NCBI GenBank assembly: GCA_027078475.1 | Contig: JALWYH010000083.1 | Span: 1-50,545, forward strand | Source: Thermoproteota archaeon | GTDB taxonomy: Archaea; Korarchaeota; Korarchaeia; Korarchaeales; Korarchaeaceae | DNA length: 50,545 bases | Direction of reading: 5' to 3' | In this document: positions 7,442 through 50,283 of the stretch, piece by piece | Numbering within the stretch: position 1 is the first letter of the stretch | Layout: the number at the start of each line of letters is the position of its first letter | The notes under the pieces: generated by a model | Databases searched by the model: none | Told to the model about the DNA's origin: nothing | Seen by the model: only the letters and a program-made list of their open reading frames with translations | Translations under genes and position numbers: made by a program

Positions 7442-7672
7442 TCACAGCTCCAATCTGGTCTGCCTGCCAGCCAGGATCTCGGGCCTCTCGCGGTGCCTGT
7501 AAATCAGTTCCCCGTTCCTGACGTAAACGTAGAGGGTATCTCCGGGCTGCCAGCCGAGCTCTTCGACTAGAGATTTGGGGGCGGTCAGCTGATAGCTCAG
7601 ATATCTCTTGCCCTCCCTCTCCCATCTCTTCACTCTTAGCTTCACGTAGGGCATAACATAATCAGTTGGCAT
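7442..7672 (-). CDS. Small AbrB/SpoVT-like protein
   Basis: A 76-residue protein whose segment LTAPKSLVEELGWQPGDTLYVYVRNGELIYRH fits the swapped-hairpin AbrB/SpoVT pattern of a beta strand, 'P.sl.eelgw.pGD.l.v' and a final strand. Such proteins are usually DNA-binding transition regulators or antitoxins. It overlaps the upstream gene by 11 nt and is its probable operon partner. An internal ATG at 7654 (MPYVKLRV) is a plausible alternative start. No toxin gene is adjacent. Confidence 0.6.
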   Translation of the reverse strand: MPTDYVMPYVKLRVKRWEREGKRYLSYQLTAPKSLVEELGWQPGDTLYVYVRNGELIYRHRERPEILAGRQTRLEL

Positions 7673-8033: not shown

Positions 8034-8128
8034 TCCGATCCACTATCCATCACCTCACCCAATGATATAAAGCCTCCAGACTGCATGTTGGATCGAGATA
8101 TTGCACGGGTAGTGCGCGGTGAGTTGAA

Positions 8129-11100
8129 ATGATACCAGCTGTGTTCAGGGATCTGTGCCCAGGCGGCGATCTCAGGACCCACGCGAGAACACCCTGCTTG
8201 GAGGAGGACGTATCCGAGGTGGGAATCGAGTTCGAGGATTACGTGAGATTCTTCAGGTCGTGCCTCGGATCCCCTCCGTGGGAGATCCAGAGGATGTGGG
8301 CCAGGAGGGCCCTGGCCGGTAGGAGCTTCGCCGCCATAGCTCCCACAGGGGTGGGGAAGACTGCCTTCGGCTTGGTGACCAGCTACTATCTCGCCTCCAA
8401 GGGGAGAGGTCGCTCATACCTGATATTCCCCACATCCCTGCTGGTGGATCAGGCCGTCGATACCCTGAGCAGGTACTCCGAGGCTGTAGGGGAGCCCCTC
8501 AGGGTCCTGGCATATCGCAGGGGGATGAGCAGCAGGGACAGGAGGGAGTTCTTGGAGGCGCTGGAGGCAGGGGATTTCGACGTGCTGGTGACCACATCCC
8601 AGTACCTAGCCAAGAATCATGAGAGGCTGAGGCAATCTCCGGGCCGGTTCTCCTTCATTTTCGTCGATGACGTCGATTCCTTCCTAAAGAACTCGAGGAA
8701 CGTCGATAGGGTTCTTACCCTGATGGGATTCACGGAGGAGGACGTGAGGCGAGCCCTCCGGGGGGAGGAAGTGAGCAGAAGGGTTGACAGCGTTCTCATA
8801 GTTTCCACCGCCACGGGAAGGCCCGGGTCCAGGGCGGCCCTTTTCAGGAGGCTCCTGGGATTCGATGTGGGGGTGCTCAGGCAGGAGCTACTGAGGAACA
8901 TAGCCGATATTTACACCAGGGATCGGGATGGGCTGAGGCGGTTCCTGAGGTTCATGGGGAGCGGTTTCCTCCTGTTCGTCCCCAAGCTGGAGATGGCGGG
9001 GGAGGCCAGGTCGCTGGCTGAGGGGCTGGGCTACAGGGTCCGGGTGCTGCAGGGCTACGATGAGGGGATCGTGGAGGCCTTCAAATCCGGGGAGCTGGAT
9101 GGACTGATCGGGGCGGCGAGGCCCTACGGTGTCCTAGTCAGGGGCCTCGACCTCCCCCAGAGGATCAGGTACGTGGTCTTTCTCGGGGTGCCCCGCTTCG
9201 AGATGACCGTCGGGGATGTCGATGAGATGAGCGACAGGGCGGTCGTGGCCATCCTCTCAGCACTGGCCAAGGGTCTGGGGAAGGAGGAAAGAAGGTTCGC
9301 CCTGAAACTGAGGAGGCAGCCCACCGAGAGAGACCTGAGGAGGGCCAGGGAGACGCTGAAAGATATACTCTCCAGCGAGGAGAGGCTGAGGGAGCTTGCT
9401 GGCGCGGGGGATCTGACGGTCATTCCCAAAGAGGGAAGGGTGATAATCCCCGATATCAGGACATACATTCAGGGATCCGGCCGCTCCTCTAGGCTGTATC
9501 CGGGAGGGATGACCAAGGGAGCAAGCCTAGTCTGGGATGAGGAACCCCTGCTCAGTTCCTTCATAAAGAGGGCTAGCGCGTATGACCTCGAGTTCTCGCC
9601 GATGGATGAAGTGGATCTGGAGTCACTGAGGGCGGAGATAGATGAGAGCAGGAGGAAGTACTCTTCGCTCAGAACAGGATTTGAGATGGCTGGATTGCTG
9701 AGGACCGCCCTCTTCATAGTGGAGAGCCCCAACAAGGCCAGGACCATAGCGAGATTCTTCGGGAGGCCAGCTAGGAGGATCGTGAATGGTGTGGTAGCTT
9801 ACGAGGTGACCACCGGGGACTATGTGCTCACCATAATGGCCAGCGGGGGGCACGTGGTGGACCTGTCGACCCAAGGAGGGTATCACGGGGTGCTCGTGGA
9901 GGGCGACGGCAGGAGGCTCTACATACCCATTTACGCCTCCATCAAGAGGTGCATGGACTGCGGCTACCAGTTCACCGACGGGGACCGTTGCCCGAGGTGC
10001 GGTTCCACCAACATCAGGGACAGCAGGAACAACGTGGTATCCATGAGGAGACTGGGCTTCGAGGCCTCTCGAGTGATAATAGGGACCGATCCCGACACCG
10101 AGGGGGAGAAGATAGCGTGGGACATATATCAGCTGATCAGGGATGCGGCTGAGGAGATATATAGGGCTGAGTTCCACGAGGTGACCAAGAGGGCCATCTT
10201 GGAGGCCCTGAGGGAGCTGTCAGGTACCAGCGAGCCGAGGGTCAAGGCCCAAGTGGTGAGGAGGATCGAGGACAGGTGGATAGGGTTTGAGCTGAGCTAC
10301 GAGGTGCAAAAAAGGTTCAACAGGAGGAACCTATCGGCGGGGAGGGCCCAGACGCCCACCCTTGGATGGATAATAGAGAGGTACGAGCAGCACAGGAGAA
10401 AGAAGGATGTCACGGTGATAAGCGGGGATGACATCTTCATCAGGGTGGAGGGAAAGGTGGGCTCACCCGGCAGGTCAGAGGCGATTCTGGAACCCCTAGA
10501 GGTGATCGAGGAGCGAGTGAATCCTCTCCCGCCGTTCACGACGGATGAGATGATAAGGGAGGCCAGCAGGGTTCTGAAGCTGGGGGCAAAGAGGGTGATG
10601 GACGTAGCCCAGTCCCTCTTCGAGGCGGGTCTGATCACGTATCACAGGACCGACAGCACCAGGGTCAGCGATGCCGGCCTCAGGGTTGCGGCCGAGGTGC
10701 TGGGCGACGAGTTCGTTCCTAGGAGGTGGGGCGAAGGCGGGGCACACGAGTGTATAAGACCCACCAAGCCTCTGTCAGCCAGGGAGCTTCTAGACTACGT
10801 GAGGGAGGGGTTAATAGCCGCCCCCGAGGGGTTCTCGAGGGATCACATCAGGCTCTACGATCTGATATTCAGGAGGTTCATAGCGTCCCAGGCTAGGGAA
10901 AGCGTGTTGGCGAAGCAGAGGTACAGGCTTGTTCTGGATGGCGAGGAGATTCTAGATGAGAGGGTGATCGACGTGAGGGGAGGGTGGGCCACCATCTACC
11001 CCTTCATCTACCAGAGGAGGTCCCCGGTCTCGAGAGGTAGAGTGCAGGTAGAGGTGAGGCACCTGCAGGTTCCATCCGTCCCTCTCTACAGTCAGGGGGA

Positions 11101-30609: not shown

Positions 30610-32052
30610 GTGCCCTCGATAGAGAGCTTCTTCAACCCCAAATCGATGGTCATCGTTGGCGCTTCTAGAACGCCGGGGAAGATAGGGTATGAGCTGCTGA
30701 GGATTATGGTCGAGAACTCGCGGAGGGGAATTTACAGGGGGAAGCTCTACGCCGTCAATCCCAGATCTGATGAGATGATCCTCGGGGTCCCTACCTACAA
30801 GTCCGTCCTCGAGCTGCCCGAGGTGCCCGATCTGGCGGTGCTCGTGACCCCGGCCAAGTACACTCCGCCTGTGATGGAGGAATGCGGTAAGAAGGGAATA
30901 AAGCATGTCATCGTGATCAGCGGCGGCTTCGCGGAGATTGGAGGTCAGGGTGTCGAGCTCCAGAAGATGCTCGATGAGATAAGGAGGAAGTATGGGATGA
31001 GGGTCATAGGGCCAAACTGCGTCGGCGTCGTGGTCCCTTCCACCGGTGTCGACACCATGTTCCTCCCAGTTGAGAAGGAGTTCCTCGGCAGGAAGTACGT
31101 GTCCTCTCCGAGGCCGAAGCCGGGAAACATCTCTCTCAGCACGCAATCGGGAGCCTTCGGGGTGGCGTGCCTCGACTACATGCACGGGGAGGGAATAGGC
31201 CTGGCCAAATTCGTGAGCTACGGAAACAAGCTGGATGTGGATGAGGTTGACGTGCTGGAGTACCTCAAGGGGGACGAGGAAACCAAGGTCATCCTCATAT
31301 ACGCCGAGTCCATCGACAGAGGAAGGGAGTTCCTCAGGCTGGCCAAGGAGATCACCAAAGAGAAGCCGATAGTGGTCTTCAAAGCCGGAAGAACCAGTGC
31401 GGGAGCCAAGGCGGCCAGCTCGCACACCGCCGCCATGGCTGGCAGTGATTCCGTCTACGATGCAGCCTTCAAGCAGGCCGGGGTCATAAGGGTGAGGGAC
31501 ATGGAGGAGCTGTTCGACGCGGCCAAGGCACTGGTGATGCAGCCACCGGCAGGAGGGGACAGGATAGCCATACTCACCGATGGTGGTGGCGTGGGTGTGA
31601 TGGCGGCTGATGAGACCGAAGCCGTCGGCCTCAGGCTCGCGGATCTGAGCGATGAGAGCCAGGAGAGGTTCCAGGAACTGAAGGATAGGAGGATAATTCC
31701 GCCCATCGCTGCCACGGGAAATCCGGTCGACCTCACCGGGAGCGCCACCGACGACTCCTTCGTGGAGTCCATGAGGATCCTGCTGGAGGACGAGGGGGTC
31801 GACGGGGTGATAGTGCTGGCGCTTCACCATGTCCCCGGGGTGACGGCAGAACTCCCGAGCAAGCTGGCCGACCTCTCTAAGAAATACGGTAAGCCGGTGG
31901 TGGCCATGGATGTGGGGTCCTCCCAGTACGCTAGGGAGTTCAGGGAGCTCTTCGAGAGAGAGGGGATACCAGCCTATCCTGAGTCGGAGAGGGCCGTGAG
32001 AGCCATGAAGGCCCTCGTGGAGTTCGGGAGGGCTAAGAACCTCCCGAGATGA
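30610..32052 (+). CDS. acdA: ADP-forming acetyl/acyl-CoA synthetase, alpha subunit
   Basis: The 480-residue protein is the alpha chain of ADP-forming acyl-CoA synthetase, which converts acyl-CoA, ADP and phosphate to acid, CoA and ATP in peptide and sugar fermentation. The CoA-binding domain has VIVGASRTPGKIGYE, then VIGPNCVGVV. The phosphohistidine is in ASSHTAAMAGSD (His272 by my count). ILTDGGGVGVMAADE and GNPVDLTGSA belong to the third domain. The ATP-grasp beta subunit is absent here, so it must be encoded elsewhere. The start is GTG 30610. The 3' end overlaps the convergent ectodomain gene by 20 nt. Confidence 0.9.
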   Translation: MPSIESFFNPKSMVIVGASRTPGKIGYELLRIMVENSRRGIYRGKLYAVNPRSDEMILGVPTYKSVLELPEVPDLAVLVTPAKYTPPVMEECGKKGIKHVIVISGGFAEIGGQGVELQKMLDEIRRKYGMRVIGPNCVGVVVPSTGVDTMFLPVEKEFLGRKYVSSPRPKPGNISLSTQSGAFGVACLDYMHGEGIGLAKFVSYGNKLDVDEVDVLEYLKGDEETKVILIYAESIDRGREFLRLAKEITKEKPIVVFKAGRTSAGAKAASSHTAAMAGSDSVYDAAFKQAGVIRVRDMEELFDAAKALVMQPPAGGDRIAILTDGGGVGVMAADETEAVGLRLADLSDESQERFQELKDRRIIPPIAATGNPVDLTGSATDDSFVESMRILLEDEGVDGVIVLALHHVPGVTAELPSKLADLSKKYGKPVVAMDVGSSQYAREFRELFEREGIPAYPESERAVRAMKALVEFGRAKNLPR

Positions 32053-34525
32053 ACCTCTTTATGAACGGGAGCGCTATGATCGCACCCAATATCACCACGG
32101 CCAAGATCACTGTTTTCATGTAGTCGCTCGACCCCCCCCTGGGATTGAGCCTCACGGTGGTGTGAGCTGTCTGGTAGAGGGATCTCCCGTCCTGTTTCCA
32201 AGATATCTTGACATCGACTGGGATCCTGAGGGGGGCGTTCTCGTCGATGTCCACCTCCATTATGGCGGATGCGTTCGATCTGGGCGGTATCTCACCTAGG
32301 GCCAGGGAAGTGGTCCCCACCAAGTAGGGGGTTATGATCTCCAAGACCACGTCCTTGGCGGTGACCCGCCCCTCGTTCCTAAGGACCACCGTCAGCTTCG
32401 CTCCCCTGTCACCCGGCCTGGGCTTTCCGGGTATGGAAAATTCCACCAGTCGGAACCTGGCCTTCTCATCTATCTGAACGGGTATCGTCGCGTTACCCAG
32501 TTCAGACGTCAGGATTGCCTCGTACCTACCCGGCCTGGCGTTCTCGTCGATATCGACCAAGAAGGTGACATCGACCGCCTGGTTGGGGGGAAGGGCTGGA
32601 ACTAGGAAGGAGTCGGTACCCGGTGAGGAGGGCTTCATTACCCCGGACACGGGTCTCAGGATCAGCCTCAGATTCTTGGCCACGTAGTTCCCCACGTTTG
32701 TTACTACCACAATCAGCTTCACGTTGGTGTCCCCTGGGTACACCGAAGAGGGGATCGTCGATACGTGGGCCACCTCTATTTGAGGTTTTCCCACCGCCCT
32801 TATGCCGAAGGATAGAAGGTCGTTGTGGGTCACGCCCGCTTCATCCTCATAACTCACCTGGGCTAGGAGTTGAACTGCACCGTAGGCCTTGGGAGATAGG
32901 TAAATGGAGAAGACCCTATCAGCCGATTCACCTGTGTCGAGCTCGTCCACATAGGCGTAGTCCTCCCCCACCACAGCCCCGAGCTCCGGAGAGGGGAAGA
33001 TAAGCTTGAGGACCAGATTTCGAGCAACTCCTCCCTCGTTCCTTATCCTGAGCCTCATATCACTGACTTGATCCACGGCCAGCTCCGTATCTAGGGGGCT
33101 CACCGATATGAGGGGCGTATCTGGGCTCTCTGTTATAAAGGAGAGGGGAATTACTTGCTCTTGGGCCCTGTCATGATCGTCCATGTACGACACTTGTAGG
33201 GTCAGGGCAAGGCTACCGTAGCTCACGTTGGGGGCAGAGAGGAGGAGTGTCATCCTAGCACCTTGGCCCGGTTCTAGGTCCCCGACCTCCACCCCGCTGG
33301 GGGAGAGGAGGGCCAAGTCCTTGGACGGGATGAAGCTAACCCTGATAGATCTGGCCACCTCCTGTCCCTCGTTCCTCAGGATAACATCCACCATCTCCTG
33401 ACTTCCCGGCATCAGAACCTTCCTGTCTGTGTAGGCGACTAGATAGGGACCGGGTGGTGCCCTCACGTAGAAGCCCAGAGTGGCTGTGTTGGTGTGTCTC
33501 TCGGATCCGGGATCGAACCATTCAACGCTCACCGGTAGCTGAAGGGTCCCCTTCGTGCTCGGGCTCACGTAAAGCTCAAGGGGAACGCACACAGTTTTTC
33601 CTGAGGATATATTACCCAGTTCGACCCTGTTGGATCCGCGTATGGCTGCACCGGGAGGTGACTGCACGATGAGCGTCCCCCTGAAGGCATCCTCGCTTCC
33701 CTCGTTCTCCACGAAGAGGTAAACCATGTTCACCCTGCCCGGCTCCAGGGTGGTGGAGTTGGTGCGGACTGAGAGTCCCCTAGGCGGCATCTCGGATATT
33801 GCTACGTTCTGGGTGCACGTGTACTGACCCCCGGCACCCACCTGGGAATCCCAGGTAACCGTCACTGTGAGAGTGACCGCCTCGTCGGCGATGTCACCCA
33901 CGTAGAGGGTGATCGGAAAGGCCTCACTGCTGCCGGGGTCCATCATCCCGGCATCGATTGGCGAGGACACCTGAACACTGGGTGATGCAGGGGCTATGGT
34001 AGCTCTGACGTTCCTGGCCACGCCATCACCGTAATTCGAGAGGATCAGCTGGGCCCTAGCTGGTCTGCCTGGCCTTGCCATCGCCGACAGAGAGCACCTC
34101 ACCTGAGGAGACCCTCTGACGGTCACGTAGAGATCGTAGGTCTCTGTCTCCGGAACTCCGTCGACCGTGAAGCTTACATCCAAGGTGGCTCTATAATGTG
34201 AAGCGTCCGCATTGGCCGGAATGAATATGTTGAACCTCATCATGAGCACCTGCCCTTGGAAGAGGGATCCAGAGTAGGAGAAGGTTCCGGCGTAGTCAGT
34301 CCCGGCTACATCGTGAACGGTCAAGGTGGCCGATATCCCACTGATAGTCCCTCCGTAGAGGCTCTTCACCTCTACGATGAAGGTGTTCGTGATCCCCACT
34401 ATGAAGGGGGCTCTCCAGTAGGAATCCATCACCTTCAGGTAGGAGGAATCAAGACGGGTGAGCATCAAGGGGGAAGGGGTAGCGATGACCAGCATCACCA
34501 AGACTAGGAGTCGGATCCGCCTCAT
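32033..34525 (-). CDS. CARDB/NEW3-repeat surface protein with C-terminal membrane anchor
   Basis: An 830-residue secreted protein: signal peptide (IRLLVLVMLVIATPSPLML), then tandem Ig-like repeats, then one transmembrane helix (about 802-824) and a short basic tail. Six N-x-G strands mark the repeats (NYGDGVARN, NEGSEDAFR, NEGQEVARS, NEGGVARN, NVGNYVAKN, NEGRVTAKD). They fall near residues 158, 271, 384, 497, 610 and 715, a period of about 113. No enzyme domain is seen. It is third in a tight operon (ATPase, permease, ectodomain); its ATG overlaps the permease stop by 1 nt behind a GGTGA. It is probably part of, or exported by, that ABC system. Confidence 0.8.
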   Translation of the reverse strand: MRRIRLLVLVMLVIATPSPLMLTRLDSSYLKVMDSYWRAPFIVGITNTFIVEVKSLYGGTISGISATLTVHDVAGTDYAGTFSYSGSLFQGQVLMMRFNIFIPANADASHYRATLDVSFTVDGVPETETYDLYVTVRGSPQVRCSLSAMARPGRPARAQLILSNYGDGVARNVRATIAPASPSVQVSSPIDAGMMDPGSSEAFPITLYVGDIADEAVTLTVTVTWDSQVGAGGQYTCTQNVAISEMPPRGLSVRTNSTTLEPGRVNMVYLFVENEGSEDAFRGTLIVQSPPGAAIRGSNRVELGNISSGKTVCVPLELYVSPSTKGTLQLPVSVEWFDPGSERHTNTATLGFYVRAPPGPYLVAYTDRKVLMPGSQEMVDVILRNEGQEVARSIRVSFIPSKDLALLSPSGVEVGDLEPGQGARMTLLLSAPNVSYGSLALTLQVSYMDDHDRAQEQVIPLSFITESPDTPLISVSPLDTELAVDQVSDMRLRIRNEGGVARNLVLKLIFPSPELGAVVGEDYAYVDELDTGESADRVFSIYLSPKAYGAVQLLAQVSYEDEAGVTHNDLLSFGIRAVGKPQIEVAHVSTIPSSVYPGDTNVKLIVVVTNVGNYVAKNLRLILRPVSGVMKPSSPGTDSFLVPALPPNQAVDVTFLVDIDENARPGRYEAILTSELGNATIPVQIDEKARFRLVEFSIPGKPRPGDRGAKLTVVLRNEGRVTAKDVVLEIITPYLVGTTSLALGEIPPRSNASAIMEVDIDENAPLRIPVDVKISWKQDGRSLYQTAHTTVRLNPRGGSSDYMKTVILAVVILGAIIALPFIKRFISGGS

Positions 34526-35655
34526 CAGGTCACCTCCATCCTGAGGAACCTGAGGGAGAGCACGAGGAAGGCCACAGTAAACAGGGTCATCGTGGTCAGC
34601 TGGTCAACGACCATGAGGTAGCTCCACCCTTTAAGGGAGACGCTCCTGAAGGCGGTGACGAAGTAATACATCGGGACGAACGATGCTATAAGCCTGGCCT
34701 CGGAGCTGAGCACATCCACCGGAACGAGCACGCCGCTGAAGAGCATGAACACTATGAAGGAGAATATGCTGGCCTGGTAGGCTTGGAGCTGGTTCCTTGA
34801 GAAGACGGATATGAGCAAACCTAAGCTCAAGGAGTTGAGCAGGAACACTGTGGACACTATAGTCATGTCGAGGAAGGTGCCCTTAAGTCTCACATCGAAG
34901 AGCAGCATGGCCGTGAAGAGGCTCAGTATGGCGTCGGATATGGTGGCCAAGAAGTAGGCTGCTAGCTTGCCGAAGATTATGTCGAACACGCTAACGGGAG
35001 TCATTATGAATTGCTCAAAGGTTCCTTTCTCCCTCTCCCTGCAGATCGACACGGATATCAGGCTCGTGGGAACCATCTGGAGAATCATTGCCATCAGGGC
35101 GGGGATGAAGCTCTCTATCTTCTTCACCTTCGGGCCATAAACGGTATAGAACATGGGCGTGATGGCAAAGGTGCCGAACCTGTCCGCCGCCCACTCTTGA
35201 AACTGCTGGGTGACCACCCCCACGGCCTGCATTATCATCTGGGCCACAGATGGGTTGCTGGCATCGTAGTAGAGTTCCACCCTCGTGGGTCTTCCCTTCG
35301 TGAGATCCTCCGTGAAGGTCTCGGGTATCACCAAACTGGCATAGACCCTGCCCGAGTACACCGATGAGAAACCCTGCCCCTTCGACCTGTATATTGCCTT
35401 TATGTCGAACATCTTGGAGTTCCTGAGTTCCTGAATGAACTTGAAGGCCCCATCCCCTCCATCCAAGTCCACCACCGTTATGGGGTACTTCCCCGCTCCC
35501 TTACCCCCGTAACCGTAGCCAAAGAGTATGGTGACTGTTATTGGCATCAACAGGACCATGAGGATGGTCTTGGGATCCCTCACGAGCTGTCTTATCTCCT
35601 TGTCGACTATGGGGATTATCCTGAGTCCCTTACGGATCCCCTCCTCGAGGCTCAT
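34525..35655 (-). CDS. ABC-2 type exporter permease
   Basis: The 376-residue membrane protein has the ABC-2 topology. The N-terminal helix (ILMVLLMPITVTILFGYGYG) is followed by an outside domain of about 130 residues (ITVVDLDGGDGA...LVIPETFTEDL) and five C-terminal helices. The conserved ICREREKGTFEQFIMTPVS segment is typical of the second half. It overlaps the ATPase gene by an ATGA junction (35652-35655) and the ectodomain gene by 1 nt. Drug-export-type permeases of this family move lipids, polysaccharides or peptides; the substrate here is unknown. Confidence 0.88.
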   Translation of the reverse strand: MSLEEGIRKGLRIIPIVDKEIRQLVRDPKTILMVLLMPITVTILFGYGYGGKGAGKYPITVVDLDGGDGAFKFIQELRNSKMFDIKAIYRSKGQGFSSVYSGRVYASLVIPETFTEDLTKGRPTRVELYYDASNPSVAQMIMQAVGVVTQQFQEWAADRFGTFAITPMFYTVYGPKVKKIESFIPALMAMILQMVPTSLISVSICREREKGTFEQFIMTPVSVFDIIFGKLAAYFLATISDAILSLFTAMLLFDVRLKGTFLDMTIVSTVFLLNSLSLGLLISVFSRNQLQAYQASIFSFIVFMLFSGVLVPVDVLSSEARLIASFVPMYYFVTAFRSVSLKGWSYLMVVDQLTTMTLFTVAFLVLSLRFLRMEVT

Positions 35656-36599
35656 TCCGATTCACCCATGAACCTTATGAACGCTTCTTCAAGGCTCACG
35701 TGGACCGGGGATGCCAGCAGGACCCTGGCTCCCAGCTCCTCCGCCCTCTTCACTATTCTGGGGAGATCCCTTCCCGAGTCCTTCACGATGAGGAGGTACC
35801 TCCCACCCGAGTCCTCCAGAACCGACCTAACTCCAGGCAGCTCCATCGGGTTCAGATCGCCCTCAAGAACTATCTCAACCAGATCGCCACCCAGAGCCTT
35901 CCTCTTTATCTCCCTGGGAGATCCTTCCGCGATTATCCTGCCCCTGTTCATCAGCGCCAGCCTGTCGCAGTTCTCGGCCTCGTCCATGTAGTGAGTGGTC
36001 ACCAGTATCGTCTTGCCCTCTCTGTTCAGCTCCCTGAAGTGCTCCCAGAACTTCCTCCTCAGCGGAGGATCCACACCCGCTGTCGGCTCGTCCAGTATGA
36101 GCAGGGCTGGATCGTGGACAAGGGCCGTCGCGAGGGCCAGCCTCTGCTTCATCCCACCACTGAGCTTTCCCGCTAGCCTTCTCCTGAACTCCCACAGGTA
36201 GAACCTCTCCAGCAGTTCCCTTACCCTCTCTCTGAGCAGGTTTCCGGTGAGGCCCTGAAGGCGCCCGTACAGCCTTATGTTCTCCTCCACCGTGAGGTCC
36301 TCGTACAGGCTGAATCTCTGGGGCATGTATCCTATGTACCTGAGGGCCCTTTTTCTCTCCCTTGCAACGTCTATCCCGAAGACCCTGACGTATCCCTCGG
36401 AGGGCCTTATCACCCCGGTGATCATCCTTATGGTTGTGGTCTTGCCGGCCCCGTTTGGCCCCAGCAGGCCGAAGTTCTCCCCTCTCCTTATGCTTAGATT
36501 TATGTGGTTCACCGCCACGAAATTCCCGAACCTCTTGGTCAGACCCTTGGCTTCCACCGCGAGCTCTGGCAGCTCCCCCATCCTCTCCAGCTCGAGCAT
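35652..36599 (-). CDS. ABC exporter ATP-binding protein
   Basis: A 315-residue ABC ATPase with Walker A GLLGPNGAGKTTT, signature LSGGMKQRL, Walker B LLILDEPTAGVD and the switch His in LVTTHYMDEAENCDRL. The C-terminal 80 residues after the core (VEIVLEGDLNPME...) form the extra domain of NatA/DrrA-type ATPases. It powers the permease encoded next. The minus-strand TATA AAATTTATAC (36621-36630) is 26 nt before ATG 36599, so the operon mRNA appears leaderless. Confidence 0.93.
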   Translation of the reverse strand: MLELERMGELPELAVEAKGLTKRFGNFVAVNHINLSIRRGENFGLLGPNGAGKTTTIRMITGVIRPSEGYVRVFGIDVARERKRALRYIGYMPQRFSLYEDLTVEENIRLYGRLQGLTGNLLRERVRELLERFYLWEFRRRLAGKLSGGMKQRLALATALVHDPALLILDEPTAGVDPPLRRKFWEHFRELNREGKTILVTTHYMDEAENCDRLALMNRGRIIAEGSPREIKRKALGGDLVEIVLEGDLNPMELPGVRSVLEDSGGRYLLIVKDSGRDLPRIVKRAEELGARVLLASPVHVSLEEAFIRFMGESE

Positions 36600-40988: not shown

Positions 40989-41705
40989 TCACCCGGAATG
41001 GGACCACTTGATCCCCTCATCCACCCTTCTCACGTAGATCCTCTTCGCCACCACGCTCGCCGCCGCTACCGACGCGTACTTCAGGTCGGCCCGCGGTTCC
41101 ACGATGATCTCCAAATCCCTCAGCTGAGATAGAACTTCCTTCAGCCTTCGATCGTCGAACGAATCGACTACCACCCTGGAAGCATTCACCTCGCCTAGGA
41201 CCTCAGAGATCACATCCAGATGCCATCTGGCGAGCAACTCATTGAGATTCCCCTTCCTCCACTCGGAGCGGAGCTCCCCGGGACTCACAACCCTGTAGCT
41301 TACAGCCAGGGCCCTCGCCTCCACCAGGTCAGCGATCTCCTCCAGCCTGCGTGGGGGGATGGACTTGGACTCCAGCAGCCCCCTAGCCCTCAGAAACCTC
41401 CTCCCCTCATCGTCCAAGGCGACAGCAGCTACTACCAGGGGGCCGGTCCTCTCTCCCTTTCCGGCCTCGTCCGATCCCACCTCTATCCCCGGGGATTCCT
41501 CCAGTGAGTCCTCCACAAGGGAGACCAGAGGTTCGTGGTAGACGACCTTGCCACTGGTGTAGACCACCCCCTTGTAACCCTGCACCTCGAATCTGAAGAA
41601 CTCCCACTGGTTCTTGGGTGGGAGGATCCTCCCTCCCAGCTCCACGATCCTCGACTTCAGCCTCTCAATTTCCCCTTCTCTTAGAGAGGTACTTAGCTGC
41701 CGCAA
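40989..41705 (-). CDS. rnhC: RNase HIII-like ribonuclease H
   Basis: The 238-residue protein has an N-terminal region (about 1-75, FFRFEVQGYKGVVYTSGKVV) resembling the TBP-like domain of RNase HIII. It is followed by a type-2 RNase H core. Catalytic acidic residues are in GSDEAGKGERTGPLVVAAV, VVVDSFDDRRL and PRADLKYASVAAASVVAKRI. The enzyme cuts the RNA strand of RNA-DNA hybrids. RNase HIII is mainly bacterial, while archaea usually carry RNase HII, so this variant is notable. The start is a TTG at 41705, overlapping the preceding ectodomain gene by 41 nt; that overlap makes the start uncertain. Confidence 0.78.
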   Translation of the reverse strand: MRQLSTSLREGEIERLKSRIVELGGRILPPKNQWEFFRFEVQGYKGVVYTSGKVVYHEPLVSLVEDSLEESPGIEVGSDEAGKGERTGPLVVAAVALDDEGRRFLRARGLLESKSIPPRRLEEIADLVEARALAVSYRVVSPGELRSEWRKGNLNELLARWHLDVISEVLGEVNASRVVVDSFDDRRLKEVLSQLRDLEIIVEPRADLKYASVAAASVVAKRIYVRRVDEGIKWSHSG

Positions 41706-42873
41706 CCAGCATCACCAGCAGGAAAACCGCGGGAACAGCGATCCAATATGGGGGCCCTTCCCTCGTCACCTGGATTAGGTACTCGGTCTCATTGGACCTT
41801 CTGAGTTCCCTCGGGTATTCCTGGGTCCAGGCAACCCAGGCAACGAGCGTCTCATTGCCTCCCTTCGTGGCCTTCAGGGGGAGGCTTATGAAGGAGAAGT
41901 TTCCGGGACCGAGATCGCCTATCTCCCTCACCTCGTGACGCCCCTCGAACTTCACGTGTAGTTCCACGTCCAGCGCCTTGAAGGAAGAGGGATTGACCAC
42001 CGTCGCGTTGAGCTTGAACGCCCTCCCGAGCTCCACCCTTCTGGGAACATCGATTCTCTCTATCCTGACGGAGGAGGGTTTTATTACCCTGTATGGGTAT
42101 TCCACGTAGGTCCTCAGCCTCCTGCCCGCCACCTCGTACTCCACGGTGACCGACACCTTCTGCTCCCCGCCGGGAGCGTTCATGGGGATCTTCAGGGGTA
42201 TCCTGACTGAGAGTCCTCTGTGATAGCTCCAGTATTCAACTGTCTCGTTGTACAGCAGGCCCGATATGCTGTCCTCCACCTTCACCACCACATCCCTCAT
42301 GGCTGTGGGGTACAGGGGAGGTCCTGTGAAGACCGTGACATTGGCTATTATGATGGATGGAGGGACAACCTCGGTCTTGCTCAGGTTGAGGAAGACGAAG
42401 GGTTCCCACTTGTGCACATATATCTGCTTACTTCCGGTCACCGCGTACCTCCTGAGCTCACCGCCCTCCTTGACCATCAGGTAGCCCCTGGCGGATATGG
42501 TTCTGCTCACCTCCATGTCTTGGAGTGGGACACGAACGAGGAAGGCCACGTGAACGGCCGTCGCCCCGTCCCCCCTGTAGAAGGCCGTGTTTCCGTCCCA
42601 CTCTATGTCTATCTTCTCTCCCCTAGCGTTTATCCCGCTGGCCCCGTAGGGCTCCACCTTCCAGCTGGATGGCGTCGATATCGATAGCTTGAACTCCACT
42701 ATCGGCCTGCTGCCCGGGGAGGTCACATTTATGAAGGCGTAGAAGAAACCACCGGCCACTACCTCGGTGTCCGACACCCCTAGAAGGGCTATCTGGGCTT
42801 CCGTTGGCCTGGGAATTGGCGTAGTCAGCAGCAGCACCATGATTATAAGCGATGCAGCCGCTATGTACTTCAT
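41665..42873 (-). CDS. Secreted Ig-like ectodomain protein with C-terminal membrane anchor
   Basis: A 402-residue protein of unknown function. It has a signal peptide (MKYIAAASLIIMVLLLTTP) and an all-beta outside part with CARDB-like strands (NATVVNPSSFKALDVELHVK; GDLGPGNFSFISLPLKA). A transmembrane helix near the end (YWIAVPAVFLLVMLVAAAKY) and a short basic tail close it. The layout matches the larger protein at 32033-34525 but with fewer repeats. A TATA box (42896-42903) is 26 nt from ATG 42873, so the mRNA is probably leaderless. It is divergent, by 36 nt, from a second ABC-2 exporter operon. It overlaps the RNase HIII-like gene. Confidence 0.75.
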   Translation of the reverse strand: MKYIAAASLIIMVLLLTTPIPRPTEAQIALLGVSDTEVVAGGFFYAFINVTSPGSRPIVEFKLSISTPSSWKVEPYGASGINARGEKIDIEWDGNTAFYRGDGATAVHVAFLVRVPLQDMEVSRTISARGYLMVKEGGELRRYAVTGSKQIYVHKWEPFVFLNLSKTEVVPPSIIIANVTVFTGPPLYPTAMRDVVVKVEDSISGLLYNETVEYWSYHRGLSVRIPLKIPMNAPGGEQKVSVTVEYEVAGRRLRTYVEYPYRVIKPSSVRIERIDVPRRVELGRAFKLNATVVNPSSFKALDVELHVKFEGRHEVREIGDLGPGNFSFISLPLKATKGGNETLVAWVAWTQEYPRELRRSNETEYLIQVTREGPPYWIAVPAVFLLVMLVAAAKYLSKRRGN

Positions 42874-42893
42874 CGGGAGTTTCGGAGGGCTCT

Positions 42894-42904
42894 AGTATAT
42901 AAAC
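42894..42904 (-). promoter_or_regulatory. TATA box of ectodomain gene 41665-42873
   Basis: AGTATATAAAC in the divergent gap reads GTTTATATACT on the minus strand. Its centre near 42899 is 26 nt from ATG 42873. It is too close to the plus-strand ABC gene start (42916) to serve that gene, whose promoter is not clear. Confidence 0.55.
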
Positions 42905-42915
42905 GGGGTGTGTCG

Positions 42916-43659
42916 ATGGTCGCGGTCGAGGCGATATCACTGACGAAGGCTTTCGGTGACTTCCTGGCGGTCAGGGATCTCAGCTTCAAGGTGGAGGAGG
43001 GCTCGGTCTTCGGCCTGCTGGGGCCAAACGGGGCCGGCAAGACCACCACGCTCAGAATGATTTACGGTGTCCTCAGGCCAACCTCTGGCACGGCCAGGGT
43101 CATGGGAGTCGACGTCAGGGAGAACCCACTGGAGGTGAAGAGGATGATGGGGGTCCTTCCCGAGGACACGGGCGTGTATCCGAGACTCACCGCCGAGGAG
43201 AACCTGATCTACTTCGGCAAGCTCAGGGGAATGGAAGAGGGGAGGCTGAGGAGGAGGGTGGACAAGCTCCTGGACATCCTCGATCTCTCCGAGAAGAGGT
43301 TCGTCATCGCCGATAAGCTCTCCAGGGGTCAGAAACAGAAGTTAGCCTTCGCTAGAGCCATACTGGATGAGCCCCCAGTTCTCCTCCTGGATGAGCCTAC
43401 TCTGGGTGTGGATGTGATGAGCGCCAGGGAGATAAGGAGGATGATCGGGGAGTACGCCAGCTCGGGCAGGACCGTGATACTCTCCACCCACAACATGTGG
43501 GAGGTCGAGAGGCTCTGCGACAGGATAGCCATAATCAGTGAGGGCACCCTCAGGTACGAGGGGAGCAGGGAGGATCTGGAGAGGCTGGCGGGAGAGAAGG
43601 AGTTTGAGGACATATTCGTCAGGCTGGTCAGGGGGGAGACCGTTGGTAAGGCTGTTTAA
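42916..43659 (+). CDS. ABC exporter ATP-binding protein (NatA-like)
   Basis: A 247-residue ABC ATPase: Walker A GLLGPNGAGKTTT, signature LSRGQKQKL (a variant of LSGGQ), Walker B VLLLDEPTLGVD and switch His in LSTHNMWEVERLCDRI. The tail resembles NatA-type ATPases. I use ATG 42916; GTG 42910 is 6 nt upstream. The permease gene overlaps its end. This is the second exporter ATPase in the window; it differs from the one at 35652-36599 in signature motif and in lacking the longer C-terminal domain. Confidence 0.92.
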   Translation: MVAVEAISLTKAFGDFLAVRDLSFKVEEGSVFGLLGPNGAGKTTTLRMIYGVLRPTSGTARVMGVDVRENPLEVKRMMGVLPEDTGVYPRLTAEENLIYFGKLRGMEEGRLRRRVDKLLDILDLSEKRFVIADKLSRGQKQKLAFARAILDEPPVLLLDEPTLGVDVMSAREIRRMIGEYASSGRTVILSTHNMWEVERLCDRIAIISEGTLRYEGSREDLERLAGEKEFEDIFVRLVRGETVGKAV

Positions 43660-44938
43660 GGGTTCCTCCGGCGTGGTCAAATTCACGAGGGGCTTCGGGC
43701 AGAGGGGATACGCCCTGCCGGATGCACCCTGGTTGGTGGTTGCCTGGAAGGAGCTCCTAGAGGCGTTCAGAGATAGGAGGACGATGCTGAATGTGGTGCT
43801 CCTGCCCGTGATCCTCATGCCCGTGGTCATATCGCTTCCGGCCCTGATGCTCAATCCGAAGACCATACCCCCCAAGATCCTAGTCGTGGTAGATGATCCC
43901 GGTGGGATGGACCTAGCTAGGAGGATGAAATCCCTGAGGAACGAATCGGGGGCCCTGGTGACCGTGGTCTCAGGAGGCGGGAACTTCACCAACCTGATAC
44001 TCAGTGGGGAGGTGGATCTGATCGTCGAGATACCCAAGGGGTTCTACGAGAACGTCAGCTCCGGCAGGACGGGAGAACTCATCTACTACTACGACCCCTA
44101 CGGCGCCAGATCCTCCGTGGCGATGGGGATCGTCCAAGAGGTGGTGAACCAGTACTCAGAGGAGGTGCTGAGGGAGAGGTTGCGGGCGATAAACGTATCT
44201 GAGGAGTACATAAGACCCGTGGTGGCGGTCGCCAAGCAGATAACCAGCACGGGAGGGGAGGCCACGACCAGCGACATAATAACCGCCATGGTACTTCCCA
44301 TGATGGTCGGACTCATCGCCATAACAGGGGCTGGCACCTTCGCCATAGATATGATAGCGGGTGAGAGGGAGAGGAAGACCCTCGAGGCCCTCTTCACGAA
44401 TCCCGTCAGTAGGGGCCAGCTTCTCATGGGCAAGTTCACCGCCCTCACCCTGCTCTCACTGGTGAGCGGGCTGGCCACCCTGCTGTCCGCCCTGATCGGT
44501 GTCCTATTCGCGGTCTCCTCAGCAAGTGGATACGCATCCGCGACAGCCATACCTCAGTTGATGGAACCATCAAGGCTCCTCTATCTGAGCTTCGGCATTC
44601 TGATGACCGTGGCCTTGGGCGGGCTCACCGGAAACGCGGTTATGGTAACTGCGGCCTCGTTCGCGAAGACCTTCAAGGAGGCACAGCAATACGTTGGCTT
44701 CCTCACTCTCGTGCTTGTCGTGCCCATGATAGCCATCCCCTATGCCCCTCAATCCCTCTATCCGGTTCTGAGGCTGCTGCCCGTGTCCAGCCTGGCAATG
44801 TTCGCCAGGGATATGATAGTCAACCCGGGGGAGCTGGGCGCCGTGATCTCCTCCCTAGCGGCATCCATCCTGTACTTGATCGCATTCCTATGGTTAAGTG
44901 CAAGGATGTTCGGTAGGGAGTCGGTGATCTTCGGCTGA
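43643..44938 (+). CDS. ABC-2 type exporter permease (NatB-like)
   Basis: A 431-residue membrane protein. The first helix (LNVVLLPVILMPVVISLPAL) is followed by a large outside domain (PPKILVVVDDPGG...YYYDPYGARSS). About five C-terminal helices follow, with DMIAGERERKTLEALFTNPV as the coupling segment. The frame upstream of 43643 shadows the ATPase gene. TTG 43643 overlaps that gene by 17 nt, and GTG 43673 is an alternative start. Family members export sodium, drugs, lipids or peptides. A T5 run follows the stop. Confidence 0.85.
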   Translation: MVRLFKGSSGVVKFTRGFGQRGYALPDAPWLVVAWKELLEAFRDRRTMLNVVLLPVILMPVVISLPALMLNPKTIPPKILVVVDDPGGMDLARRMKSLRNESGALVTVVSGGGNFTNLILSGEVDLIVEIPKGFYENVSSGRTGELIYYYDPYGARSSVAMGIVQEVVNQYSEEVLRERLRAINVSEEYIRPVVAVAKQITSTGGEATTSDIITAMVLPMMVGLIAITGAGTFAIDMIAGERERKTLEALFTNPVSRGQLLMGKFTALTLLSLVSGLATLLSALIGVLFAVSSASGYASATAIPQLMEPSRLLYLSFGILMTVALGGLTGNAVMVTAASFAKTFKEAQQYVGFLTLVLVVPMIAIPYAPQSLYPVLRLLPVSSLAMFARDMIVNPGELGAVISSLAASILYLIAFLWLSARMFGRESVIFG

Positions 44939-46270: not shown

Positions 46271-46747
46271 CTATTTCTCCCCATCATTCAGCCTGTCGTG
46301 ATCCTTGGCCCCGATCAGGAGCTTTTCAGCTGACCTCACCATTATGTAGGCTCCCTTCATGGTCTCATCCCTCAGCTCCATCTCCCTTATCTGCTCCATG
46401 GTGAACCAGCCCCAGTCATCGTGCTCCTCCGGTCTTATCACCGGATCCATGCCGTTGTCCACGACGGCTGTGTAGAGAGGTATTATGAACTCGACCCTCA
46501 TCTCGGGGTATATTATTCCGAACGTATCCACTGGCCTCAGATCCAGAGGAGTCAGCTTGAAACCTGTCTCCTCCCTGAGCTCCCTGAGGGCCCCCCTCCT
46601 GGGAGATTCGCCGTACCTGAGACTCCCGCCGGGGACCTCCCATCTGCCCCCATTCCTCTTGCTCCGCGCCCTCTTGAGCAGCAGAACCTTGCCCTCTCTG
46701 TTGAATATGACCACGCAGGGGACCACGTGAATCTTGGTCTTCTTCAA
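46271..46747 (-). CDS. Nudix hydrolase
   Basis: The 158-residue protein has a complete Nudix box: GGSLRYGESPRRGALRELREETGF carries GX5EX7REUXEEXGU. An N-terminal strand (HVVPCVVIFNREGKVLLLKRA) precedes it. Family members hydrolyse nucleoside diphosphates linked to another moiety and include mutagenic-nucleotide sanitisers. Substrate specificity is not readable here. It lies 18 nt downstream of the zinc-ribbon membrane protein gene and may belong to the same transcript. Confidence 0.93.
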   Translation of the reverse strand: MKKTKIHVVPCVVIFNREGKVLLLKRARSKRNGGRWEVPGGSLRYGESPRRGALRELREETGFKLTPLDLRPVDTFGIIYPEMRVEFIIPLYTAVVDNGMDPVIRPEEHDDWGWFTMEQIREMELRDETMKGAYIMVRSAEKLLIGAKDHDRLNDGEK

Positions 46748-46765
46748 GTGAGGTCACCGCTCGTT

Positions 46766-47188
46766 CTAGGCCTTCTCCTTCGCCTTCTTGGGGATCTTGG
46801 CGAATATAGAGACCACCAGCATGGGAGCCCCGCACTTGGGGCACTTGTCCTGATCGGATAGCCTGCCCACGAAATCACCCTCCCTGAATGCCCTGAGCAT
46901 CTTCCTACCGCAGCTAGTGCAGTGGAGCTCCGTCAGGATCTCCTGCTGCTCCTCCTGATAAGCGAGCCTGGCCTTGGCCATGTCGTAGGCTACCTTGACG
47001 GCTATGCCCATCCCCGCCACCCCCATCACTATATTTAGGATGGCATCCGTCGTGTTTCCTTCTTGGAGTGAGGAGATCCCCATGTAGAAGAACAGGATGG
47101 ATATCAGCACTATGCCAACCATGGAGGCTACCCAGAATAGGTAGAAACCGGTGGTCGCCCTCTTCTTGCCGTTGGACTCAGAGGACAT
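46766..47188 (-). CDS. Two-helix membrane protein with zinc ribbon
   Basis: A 140-residue protein, not recognised as a named family. Two hydrophobic helices (YLFWVASMVGIVLISILFFY and AILNIVMGVAGMGIAVKVAY) precede a charged cytoplasmic helix. A zinc ribbon CTSCGRKM...DKCPKCGAPM follows, then a basic tail. Its start immediately follows the stop of the 378-residue gene (TGA then ATG), so the two are translated together. The zinc ribbon suggests contact with nucleic acid or a partner at the membrane face. Confidence 0.72.
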   Translation of the reverse strand: MSSESNGKKRATTGFYLFWVASMVGIVLISILFFYMGISSLQEGNTTDAILNIVMGVAGMGIAVKVAYDMAKARLAYQEEQQEILTELHCTSCGRKMLRAFREGDFVGRLSDQDKCPKCGAPMLVVSIFAKIPKKAKEKA

Positions 47189-48325
47189 TCATGAGGCACC
47201 TCCCATCCTGTTGCCCACGCCGACCGTGTTCCCTATCCCGGCAATCAGCACGAAATCCCCCGGCAGGGTCTTCGATCTCACGGCCATTTTGACCCTCTCG
47301 ATCACCTCATCAACTGATCTGGCTATCTCCTCTCTCATAGTGGTTATGGCGTCCAGCGGGTCCTCCTTTATCGCGATGGCATGAAGCGGAATCCTGTACT
47401 TCGTGGCCACCTCCTCTATCCTGAGCTTCTCCGGACCGGGATCCCCGATGGCGGCCCCTATGCCCTCTACTACCTCGGCCGTGGGCTCGCCCTCGAGCTT
47501 GGCGGCCGCGTCTATCATTATGATGAGGGAGACGTCTCCCTCCCTCCCCTCCACTATCCTCTCAATGGCCACTCCGGGCCTCCCGACCTCCGATCCCGGT
47601 CCCTTGGCTTTGATCACGAAGGCCCTCCTTCCCTCAATATCCACCTCGGCGCCCACGATCTTCTCGGCCACCTCACGCGGTTCAGCACCGTTCATGAGCC
47701 TCAGAGCCACCATGGGGCCGATGCTGTCTCCTATGGGTATCCCCCTCCTGAATGCCTCCCCTGCCTTCCAGTAGGCCTTGGCAATCCTCAGGATCTCCGG
47801 GAGGAGCATCTGGATCTGGGCTATATATATCAAGTTCTGGGTCCTCCTGCCTAGGATGAAGTAGTGCCTTACGATCCTATATATCATATCGAGGGCCAGG
47901 ACGCCAGCCATCTGGTCCCTCAGGTTCGATCTCTTCCATTCATCGGCTTTAGGCGCTATCTCAAGCATGAACTTATTCAGATGATCCCTAGAGCTCTCCA
48001 AGAGATGCTCCAGCCTTTTCACAGCTCCAAAGGGATCTAGGGTAACCGGCTGGATGACGAAGAACCCCTTTATCCTCTTAAACAGGGATTCGACCTCCTC
48101 CCTCGACCTGCCGTACTTGGACGCCTCCTCGACGAATTTCTTGGTTGCATCGTTCGTGTACTCCTCTAGCTTCGCCAGCGCCTTCCTTATCTCGTTTATC
48201 CAAAGCTGGGCTTGCAGCTTGCTAGCGTAGAACTGCATTATGGTTATGAATATGAGGAAGAAGATCCATGAGAACCAGTCACTCTGGTTGGTCTGCATGA
48301 GCTTCATTCCCAGCGCTTGAATCAA
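47189..48325 (-). CDS. DUF1512-like archaeal membrane protein
   Basis: The 378-residue protein resembles, by recall, the uncharacterised archaeal DUF1512 family. An N-terminal transmembrane helix (WFSWIFFLIFITIMQFYASK) anchors a large cytoplasmic part. The first half is helical (KALAKLEEYTNDATKKFVEE...). The C-terminal half is an alpha/beta domain with VSLIIMIDAAAKLEGEPTAEV, GIGAAIGDPGPEKLR and a Gly-rich ending FVLIAGIGNTVGVGNRMG. The Asp/Gly-rich strands suggest ligand binding but no known catalytic motif is seen. The start is TTG 48325 behind AAGGAGGG. It is co-directional with the deoxyhypusine synthase gene upstream. Confidence 0.7.
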   Translation of the reverse strand: MIQALGMKLMQTNQSDWFSWIFFLIFITIMQFYASKLQAQLWINEIRKALAKLEEYTNDATKKFVEEASKYGRSREEVESLFKRIKGFFVIQPVTLDPFGAVKRLEHLLESSRDHLNKFMLEIAPKADEWKRSNLRDQMAGVLALDMIYRIVRHYFILGRRTQNLIYIAQIQMLLPEILRIAKAYWKAGEAFRRGIPIGDSIGPMVALRLMNGAEPREVAEKIVGAEVDIEGRRAFVIKAKGPGSEVGRPGVAIERIVEGREGDVSLIIMIDAAAKLEGEPTAEVVEGIGAAIGDPGPEKLRIEEVATKYRIPLHAIAIKEDPLDAITTMREEIARSVDEVIERVKMAVRSKTLPGDFVLIAGIGNTVGVGNRMGGAS

Positions 48326-48367
48326 AGCACCACCCTCCTTACGGGAGCAACCCGACGATACCCCGTT

Positions 48368-49330
48368 TTAAAGCTTCCCGACCAGTTGCTTCCCCTCTCT
48401 CTTGAAGTCCCCGATCCTGTCTAGGAGCGCCGCGTAAATGAAGGGGAGAAGCGCCGTCACCTCGCCGGGAATGAAGGTCCTCATGGCCTCCTTTGAGACC
48501 TTCCCCCAGCTTATGGCCTCTCTCTCCCTGGCTCCGCTGAGGCTCCCGTCCCACTCGACAGCAGTTGATAGGTAAATCACGTAGTTCAGGCCTCCCTTGA
48601 ACTGATTCCACCATATGGTGTGGTGCTTCGATATTCCCCCTCCGAGCACCAAGGCGCCACTCACCTGCATGGTGAAGGATAGATTCGCCAGTTTCAGCAT
48701 GTCCCTCATGAAGTCCAGGTGGAAGTCAATCTCCTGGGACAGGAAGCTCAGCGCCGTGCCGAAAGAGGAATCGAGCAGGCCGGGTGAGAATATGGGTACC
48801 CCCTCGTCGTGAGCAACCCTTAGCAGGGAGCCCTGACACATTCTCTCGCCGAGGTGGTGGAGCAGCTCGCTGGGGGAGAACCTGCTCCCCAGATCTTCGA
48901 TTACCTTGGGAACCCCCTCACGCACGAAGCTCTCTATGACCGGCCCATAGTTATTGAAGGGTATGAAGATGTTCCCGAGCCTGTGTATTTCCCTCTCGTA
49001 GAGCTCGGAATCGTCAGCGTTGAAGGTGCCGTGGTAATAGTCAGCGTGACACCTAGCTATGTCGTGATCCACCGCGCCGCCCGTGGTTATGACCACATCG
49101 AATAGTCTCCTCCTGAGCATGTCAACGAGTATCCCCCTGATCCCGGTGGACACTATGTCTGCTGGGAAGGATAGGAAATTGACCGATCTGGAATCCCTAA
49201 CCATCTTCTCCATTATGGAGACGCTTTCCGCCACGAACCTGGCCGTGAAGCCGCCCGCCTTCTCCATCTCCTCAACTACATTCGACACCTTCATCCCGGG
49301 GCGCAGGGTAATATCCTCCACCTTCCTCAT
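48368..49330 (-). CDS. dys: Deoxyhypusine synthase
   Basis: The 320-residue enzyme transfers the aminobutyl group of spermidine to a lysine of aIF5A, the first step to (deoxy)hypusine. The catalytic lysine is Lys235 in LGGGISKHHTIWWNQF. NAD-binding regions include SFPADIVSTGIRG, ITTGGAVDHDIARCH and AVEWDGSLSGA. The reading frame runs back to 49408, but homology starts at MRKVEDITLRPG; ATG 49330 also fits a TATA-like CTTATTTAC 31-33 nt upstream. It is the first gene of a co-directional run with the DUF1512-like gene. Confidence 0.93.
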   Translation of the reverse strand: MRKVEDITLRPGMKVSNVVEEMEKAGGFTARFVAESVSIMEKMVRDSRSVNFLSFPADIVSTGIRGILVDMLRRRLFDVVITTGGAVDHDIARCHADYYHGTFNADDSELYEREIHRLGNIFIPFNNYGPVIESFVREGVPKVIEDLGSRFSPSELLHHLGERMCQGSLLRVAHDEGVPIFSPGLLDSSFGTALSFLSQEIDFHLDFMRDMLKLANLSFTMQVSGALVLGGGISKHHTIWWNQFKGGLNYVIYLSTAVEWDGSLSGAREREAISWGKVSKEAMRTFIPGEVTALLPFIYAALLDRIGDFKREGKQLVGKL

Positions 49331-49376
49331 GGCTATCAGGAGAGGAGGAGGGTCCACGTAAATAAGGTGGTGGCTG

Positions 49377-49631
49377 ATGGGGCGAGACCGGGTTGCTGAG
49401 GCGCTCATCAGGTACCTGAAGGTGCACGGTAGGAGGATCCTTTCGAACGCTAGTGAGCAGGAGATGGTCCGTATAGAGATCCGAGCTCTTTTCAGGTACT
49501 ACGAGAGGGAGAGCAGGGATGACAGGCTGGAGAGGCGCATAGAGGGGTTCGAGTGGAGGGGCTGCAGGGTCGATGGGGAGCACCTGATGGTTCCCCTGTC
49601 GCTGGTGAGGGAGGTGCTGGAGCTTGAATGA
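49377..49631 (+). CDS. Small conserved-looking protein, unknown
   Basis: The 84-residue protein is not recognised. It is mostly helical and basic (DRVAEALIRYLKVHGRRILS; EIRALFRYYERESRDDRLERR) with a C-terminal beta/alpha end (WRGCRVDGEHLMVPLSLVRE). The last part could be a small winged or DNA-binding element, but this is weak. AGGTGG lies before ATG 49377. It overlaps the HAD phosphatase gene by 8 nt, so they are likely co-translated. It is divergent from deoxyhypusine synthase across a 46-bp gap. Confidence 0.55.
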   Translation: MGRDRVAEALIRYLKVHGRRILSNASEQEMVRIEIRALFRYYERESRDDRLERRIEGFEWRGCRVDGEHLMVPLSLVREVLELE

Positions 49632-50283
49632 GGCCTATCTGGTGGCGTTCGACATGGATGGTACTCTAATACCGATAAGGAGCTCCTGGGAATTCGTTCA
49701 TAGGTTGCTGGGGACGGAGAAGACGGCTCTCAGGTACAGAAGGATGTACGAGAGGGGAGAGATAGACTACAGGAGGTGGGCTGAACTGGACGTTGCCAGC
49801 TGGAGGGGAAAGGATTTCTCCAAGGTGATCGGGGAGGTGGAGAGGCTGGAACCCCTCGAGGACGCCGTGGAGGCGGTCGGGATGCTGAAGTCTCATGGCT
49901 TCATCGTGGGCATAATAAGCTCGGGCTTGAACATCGTGGCCGATAGACTCTGCAGCAGGTTGGAGATGGATTTCTGCAGATCGGCGGAGCTGATCATCGT
50001 GGGGAACGAGGTCAGGGGCATAATCGAGGAGCTGGAACCTGAGAGGAAAGCGGATGAACTGGCGAGGGTGGCCAGGGAGTTCGGGGTCCCGCTGCGGAGG
50101 GTGGCGTTCGTGGGCGACGGTGAGAGCGACCTCTCGGTATTCCGCATGAGGATAGGGAGGAAGATAGCCTTCAGACCGGCATCCCAGCTCATCGTATCGC
50201 TGGCCGATCATGTGGTGGACAGCCTCATGGAGGCAGCTCGCATCCTCGTGGAGTGGAAAGGTTCGGGAGGCATCGAACCATAA
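49624..50283 (+). CDS. HAD-family phosphatase (SerB-like)
   Basis: The 219-residue protein has the four HAD motifs: FDMDGTL (nucleophile Asp9 and acid Asp11), GIISSGL with Ser, a Lys in ELEPERKADEL and GDGESDLSVF. The alpha-helical cap between motifs I and II (about 20-80) resembles phosphoserine phosphatase, but the substrate is not certain. The start is a TTG (49624) inside the end of the preceding small gene. The following gene has its own TATA box. Confidence 0.85.
   Translation: MNEAYLVAFDMDGTLIPIRSSWEFVHRLLGTEKTALRYRRMYERGEIDYRRWAELDVASWRGKDFSKVIGEVERLEPLEDAVEAVGMLKSHGFIVGIISSGLNIVADRLCSRLEMDFCRSAELIIVGNEVRGIIEELEPERKADELARVAREFGVPLRRVAFVGDGESDLSVFRMRIGRKIAFRPASQLIVSLADHVVDSLMEAARILVEWKGSGGIEP

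Follow-up and report, generated by a model that had tools for sequence, protein, structure and literature searches.

An anchored Ig-like surface protein is encoded beside a NatAB-like ABC exporter, and similar pairs recur across archaea

The stretch of archaeal DNA analysed here (the window, 50,545 nucleotides) is part of a 1.71-Mb draft genome and contains two loci in which the genes of an ABC-2 exporter lie next to a gene for a secreted, C-terminally anchored protein (Table 1). The second locus raises the question of whether its anchored protein, ECTO402, works with the exporter encoded next to it or is only its neighbor, and whether pairs of this kind represent an undescribed class of exporters. 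The original prediction placed a 402-residue anchored Ig-like protein at 36 nt, in divergent orientation, from a NatA/NatB-like pair; the open reading frames were found at those positions, and Pfam and AF2 agree with the description. The distance of 36 nt is counted from GTG 42910 of the ATPase gene, and it becomes 42 nt from ATG 42916, the codon at which the ATPase orthologues align. The permease open reading frame as called covers 43538-44938 (+), with a first start at 43538 that is too early; GTG 43673 or TTG 43643 is a better start by orthologue fit. On its other side the ECTO402 gene overlaps by 41 nt with an RNase HII/HIII gene, which probably does not belong to the functional unit.

Table 1. 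Positions of the features of loci 1 and 2 in the window.
Feature	Position	Strand	Remarks
Locus 1 ectodomain protein, 830 aa; signal peptide, CARDB and NEW3, C-terminal anchor	32033..34525	-	
Locus 1 ABC-2 permease, 376 aa	34525..35655	-	
Locus 1 ABC ATPase, 315 aa, with C-terminal extension	35652..36599	-	
RNase HII/HIII gene	40989..41705	-	Overlaps the 3' end of ECTO402; conserved neighbor
ECTO402, 402-aa type-I anchored ectodomain protein	41665..42873	-	Orthologue alignment (18) and AF2
Divergent intergenic region, 36 nt	42874..42909		18 upstream regions; promoters predicted
Locus 2 ABC ATPase, NatA-like, without C-terminal regulatory extension	42910..43659	+	Start GTG 42910 or ATG 42916
Locus 2 ABC-2 permease, NatB-like	43673..44938	+	Alternative start TTG 43643

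In the short intergenic region a TATA-like box is found at 42896-42903, centred approximately 26 nt before the ATG of ECTO402, and the upstream regions examined in detail each carry a single TATA-like box located approximately 26-27 nt before the ECTO402 start codon. Given that the box is only about 26 nt from the start codon, the ECTO402 transcript is probably leaderless. The ATG of the ATPase gene is preceded by a G-rich, Shine-Dalgarno-like stretch, and the transcript of this gene is probably longer, with its start at an overlapping divergent promoter.

According to its hydropathy, ECTO402 has the topology of a type-I protein, with a signal peptide (approximately residues 1-26), no internal span, and a C-terminal anchor (helix 379-401) followed by the positively charged tail KRR; the alignment of 18 orthologues shows the same N- and C-terminal ends. 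The AF2 model obtained with these 18 orthologues consists of three beta-sandwiches (mean pLDDT 89.7), which correspond to Ig-like domains at approximately residues 28-154, 157-264 and 268-370. Eight N-glycosylation sequons are present. The proteins returned by the fold search are generic ones of the Ig-like or beta-sandwich kind, with TM-scores under 0.4, and the comparison of the ECTO402 profile with PDB sequences gave nothing useful. ECTO402 is not a recognised member of the CARDB or NEW3 families: NEW3 was matched at 3e-4 with 21.3 bits, under the Pfam cut-off of 24.4, and two distant orthologues scored 16.6 and 19.0 bits against CARDB, under the cut-off of 22.7. NCBIfam gave no match to ECTO402, and no enzyme or signalling domain was recognised in it with Pfam or NCBIfam. 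The ectodomains of the locus 1 type are mutually homologous across several families, and their sequence similarity to the ECTO402 orthologues is marginal (best E ~2e-6). ECTO402 is unlikely to be the exported cargo of the neighboring pump, since it carries its own Sec signal.

The pump of locus 2 has the composition of an ABC-2 (type V) exporter, i.e. an ABC_tran ATPase gene adjoining that of a six-helix ABC-2 permease. The ATPase (249 aa) matches Pfam ABC_tran with 2.2e-32 and the permease matches ABC2_membrane_3 with 4.5e-29, both over the cut-off. The AF2 model of the permease, of moderate confidence (pLDDT 71), shows six membrane helices and, between helices 1 and 2 (approximately residues 68-189), an extracellular alpha/beta domain with flanking helices and five strands (68-73, 95-100, 116-120, 134-140 and 183-189). 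The solved proteins closest in sequence to the ATPase are ABCA3 and ABCA4 (E ~1e-72). For the permease, the best sequence-profile match in the PDB is NosY (E 2e-5), and the extracellular domain 3cni was also matched; the fold search placed ABCH-9C first (8yzp, E 1e-6) and NosY as the next distinct protein, and also found 3cni and ABCA proteins. The part of the published account of NatAB from Bacillus subtilis used here describes a type V/VI hybrid ABC exporter that, like the pump of locus 2, has a short ATPase without regulatory extension and a large permease extracellular domain, after helix 1, in which helices flank five strands; in contrast with locus 2, that part of the account mentions no anchored Ig-like partner (PMC11466899). 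We conclude that the locus 2 pump is an ordinary NatAB-like type V exporter, a likeness drawn from the published description of NatAB.

A search of 61 genomes for relatives of ECTO402 found them in the family of the window and, as a single doubtful case, in the class. The order RNase HIII, ECTO402, divergent ATPase, permease is kept in 18 out of 18 family genomes with covering contigs, which comprise five genera (13 genomes of the same genus and, outside it, G016, G018, G019, G020 and G022), and in genus g5 (G019, locus L075; G022, locus L074) the four genes are inverted as a unit relative to the neighborhood at 46271-50283, unlike in the window and the other genera. These two facts speak for the four genes being a cohesive unit and not a chance arrangement. 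Nonetheless, adjacency alone is weaker evidence than 18 out of 18 implies, because RNase HIII is equally part of the block and the wider region 46271-50283 is partly syntenic too. The overlap between the RNase HII/HIII and ECTO402 genes (approximately 40 nt) is present in nearly all family genomes, and this linkage dates back as far as that with the exporter genes. ECTO402 could instead be an independent surface or S-layer-associated protein, which we consider less probable than a partnership, whose position is held by gene-order inertia, with overlapping divergent promoters on one side and the RNase HIII overlap on the other. The constancy of this overlap, the wider synteny on the 46-50 kb side, the fact that ECTO402 evolves fastest in the block (beyond the closest relatives its identity is ~20-34% versus ~67-69% for the ATPase), and the absence of a detected ectodomain beside the nearest exporters outside the family are consistent with inertia. 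The divergent spacing, however, ranges across the family from 35 to ~200 nt without loss of the pair, and many unrelated archaea show an enrichment of such pairs, which are mostly tight co-directional operons (see below).

The exporters of locus 2 form one clade on both the ATPase and the permease trees (support 100/98 and 100/99), and their nearest relatives are found in G025 and G026, and then in families f10, f37 and f65, none with a detected anchored neighbor. This applies to G025 L058, G026 L145, G033 L093 and G055 L116, the exporters closest to locus 2 beyond its own family; in G025 the exporter is flanked by an enoyl-CoA hydratase gene and a MoaA-like gene. The nearest ectodomain-like gene of the same outgroup (G025 L079, 388 aa) was rejected as an orthologous pair, since it adjoins a methyltransferase and an M1 peptidase. 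Given that the nearest outside exporters stand without an ectodomain, the pairing of locus 2 arose, or survives, only in the family of the window, and a pump of this type needs no ectodomain in general. These relatives, together with the NatAB-like nature of the pump, speak against the idea that the exporter of locus 2 is itself a new class.

On the trees, the exporter of locus 1 clusters with two others from the family, L156 and L159, at a large distance from that of locus 2. The two loci are thus independent cases, as had been proposed, given that they fall in separate clades for both proteins, and the same trees rule out that locus 2 arose from locus 1 by recent duplication. That one exporter-ectodomain module was locally duplicated in tandem could be suspected from the fact that the loci lie within 13 kb of each other, each with a type-I ectodomain neighbor, and that these two ectodomain genes are the only type-I open reading frames detected in the window; it is nevertheless extremely improbable, since the supported clades are separated by other archaea, the permeases are only 23-28% identical, the gene order differs (the ectodomain gene is co-directional with the exporter genes in locus 1 and divergent in locus 2), and in G002 and G019 the loci occupy different contigs. 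The proximity noted originally is not general, given these separate contigs and the fact that no locus 1 turned up in G003.

Family searches, with the stretches around their hits, gave about nine surface proteins of the CARDB/NEW3 or Ig-like type in the genome of the window, three of them beside an exporter; the neighbors of the others include a glutamine synthetase, an HMGL-like enzyme, a MarC-like protein, a tRNA-synthetase-like gene and a topoisomerase. This count is only suggestive, because the genome has 54 ABC ATPase matches and chance ABC neighbors would not be rare. The third exporter-ectodomain locus of this genome (L084, contig C108 of G000, 6828-10315) encodes an ABC ATPase, a 536-aa CARDB protein with a signal peptide and a C-terminal anchor, and a MacB/LolC-type permease; the three genes are co-directional with small overlaps, and that of the CARDB protein is in the middle. 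The genome's third full-length exporter (C77, L043) was discarded as a further case, since no anchored neighbor was found on its 5.1-kb contig. In the window itself, a 981-aa protein that matches CARDB and has hydrophobic segments at residues 1 and 707 is encoded at 11408-14353 (-), with no exporter gene recognised alongside.

The enrichment of anchored ectodomains beside ABC-2 genes, a test that the original prediction had called for, was evaluated in 64 ABC2_membrane_3 permease loci from 32 other archaeal families, nearly all of them chosen by the permease match only. Neighboring open reading frames were called up to approximately 8 kb on either side, and were considered anchored if they had a signal peptide, no internal span and a C-terminal anchor. 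Such a protein is the immediate neighbor at 13 of the 64 loci, in 8 of the 32 families, versus a mean of 4.0 (shuffled within the region) or 3.6 (pooled), and none of 5000 shuffles reached 13. When four loci of the family are included, anchored proteins account for 15 of 134 immediate neighbors versus 13 of 788 genes further away (Fisher p = 9e-7). Since the 13 cases stem from 8 families and about four exporter clades, few of them are phylogenetically independent; the estimate is also conservative, because the detector misses cases such as L159. The association between exporters and ectodomains across archaea is real. In 12 of the 13 pairs the genes are co-directional and directly adjacent, as in locus 1. 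The presence of a downstream ectodomain changes 4-5 times on the trees and locus 2 adds one more change, which indicates that the pairing was gained or lost repeatedly.

In families f7, f38 and f82 (L090 8425-10795, L111 6739-9129 and L113 123-2543) the anchored neighbor is a PQQ/BamB-like beta-propeller and not an Ig-like protein; this assignment comes from Pfam for L090, and the other two proteins are 65% and 45% identical to that of L090. Exporters of the ABC2_membrane_2 type with an anchored NEW3 protein in the operon are present at L086 (5587-9565), L087 (6305-9327) and L088 (4029-7050), a biased sample since these loci were found through a NEW3 search.

Several known systems resemble locus 2 in part. 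NosD is a beta-helix periplasmic protein. NosDFY, involved in copper-site maturation (PDB 7o0y), also combines an ABC-2 exporter with a separate extracytoplasmic partner; in contrast, ECTO402 is formed by three Ig-like sandwiches, with no beta-helix of the NosD type in the AF2 model or the fold search, no nitrous oxide reductase context was seen at locus 2, and NosY is shorter (276 aa), with a match that leaves the NatB-type extracellular domain of the permease uncovered. The lipid transporters ABCH-9C of insects and ABCA of mammals have, respectively, the closest solved permease fold and the closest ATPase sequences, but they are single-chain eukaryotic proteins without a separate ectodomain protein. 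A putative archaeal secretion system (GldG-like arCOG01314 and Ig-like arCOG02884) also has membrane-anchored extracellular proteins, some of them Ig-like, as predicted members; at its core are an AAA+ ATPase, vWA proteins and a GldG relative of the flavodoxin-like kind, and no such protein was recognised beside locus 2 (PMC5898192). The operons of the locus 1 type in other archaea (L092, L109, L118, L121, L128, L129, L142 and others) likewise encode an anchored ectodomain directly beside the exporter; locus 2 is not one of them given its divergent order and separate exporter clade, whereas these operons are co-directional and carry CARDB/NEW3-type or beta-propeller ectodomains.

We propose that ECTO402 is the extracellular partner of the NatAB-like exporter and works like NosD with NosFY, a model that we regard as about as likely as not. 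Two ATPases and two permeases would form the type V exporter. ECTO402, exported by Sec and held by its C-terminal helix, would stand as a three-domain Ig-like stalk under the S-layer, beside or over the extracellular domain of the permease; it would most likely dock on the permease and take over, shield or position the exported substrate or, alternatively, couple the pump to the surface layer. Both would be co-expressed from the shared divergent region. Transport would presumably proceed outwards, and a lipid or lipid-linked molecule is favoured as substrate for the sole reason that lipids are what the nearest solved relatives transport. The observations from which the model starts are the predicted topology and folds, the linkage within the family and the enrichment across archaea. 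Supporting it, the layout was kept in 18 of 18 genomes while ECTO402 diverged to ~20-34% identity, the four-gene block was inverted as a unit in g5, no shuffle equalled the 13 of 64 outside loci with such a neighbor, the pairing was gained or lost repeatedly, partners also occur beside exporters of the MacB/FtsX (L084) and ABC2_membrane_2 types (L086, L087), and NosY, solved in complex with NosD, is the best profile match of the permease. The model is weakened by the equal linkage of ECTO402 to RNase HIII, an unlikely partner, and the partial wider synteny, by the closest outside exporters without an ectodomain neighbor, and by the marginal similarity to locus-1-type ectodomains.

An unlikely alternative is that ECTO402 acts on the pump as a sensor or regulator, or that the pump performs mechanical work on ECTO402 instead of transport, as in FtsEX- or LolCDE-like mechanotransmission. 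This would agree with the permease of L084, given that the MacB/LolC type is known for mechanotransmission (PMC11466899); the locus 2 permease, however, is of the type V/NatB and not of the FtsX kind, and ECTO402 is devoid of recognised enzyme or signalling domains. With regard to the partnership across archaea, we tentatively suggest, with less confidence than for locus 2 itself, a widespread undescribed exporter complex in which several ABC-2 lineages would have repeatedly recruited a Sec-exported, C-terminally anchored, beta-rich ectodomain as extracellular acceptor or gate (Ig-like stalks, or a beta-propeller in some families), an S-layer counterpart of periplasmic adaptor proteins, with locus 2 as an independent recruitment. 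No description of the pairing was found in the literature on CARDB, COG1361 and archaeal ABC exporters, among which few subscription papers were covered. Of the idea that the repeated association denotes an undescribed exporter class, the recurrence stands and the novelty of the locus 2 pump does not: the exporter is ordinary, and what is new is the pairing, a variant of a known theme that recurs across archaea. Little is known about how exported molecules cross the space that separates the archaeal membrane from the S-layer, and for the majority of archaeal ABC-2 exporters no substrate has been assigned. The recurrent and statistically supported link between exporters and ectodomains yields a concrete accessory-subunit candidate that can be tested, and it points to a role for a group of proteins that usually receive no label beyond S-layer-like.
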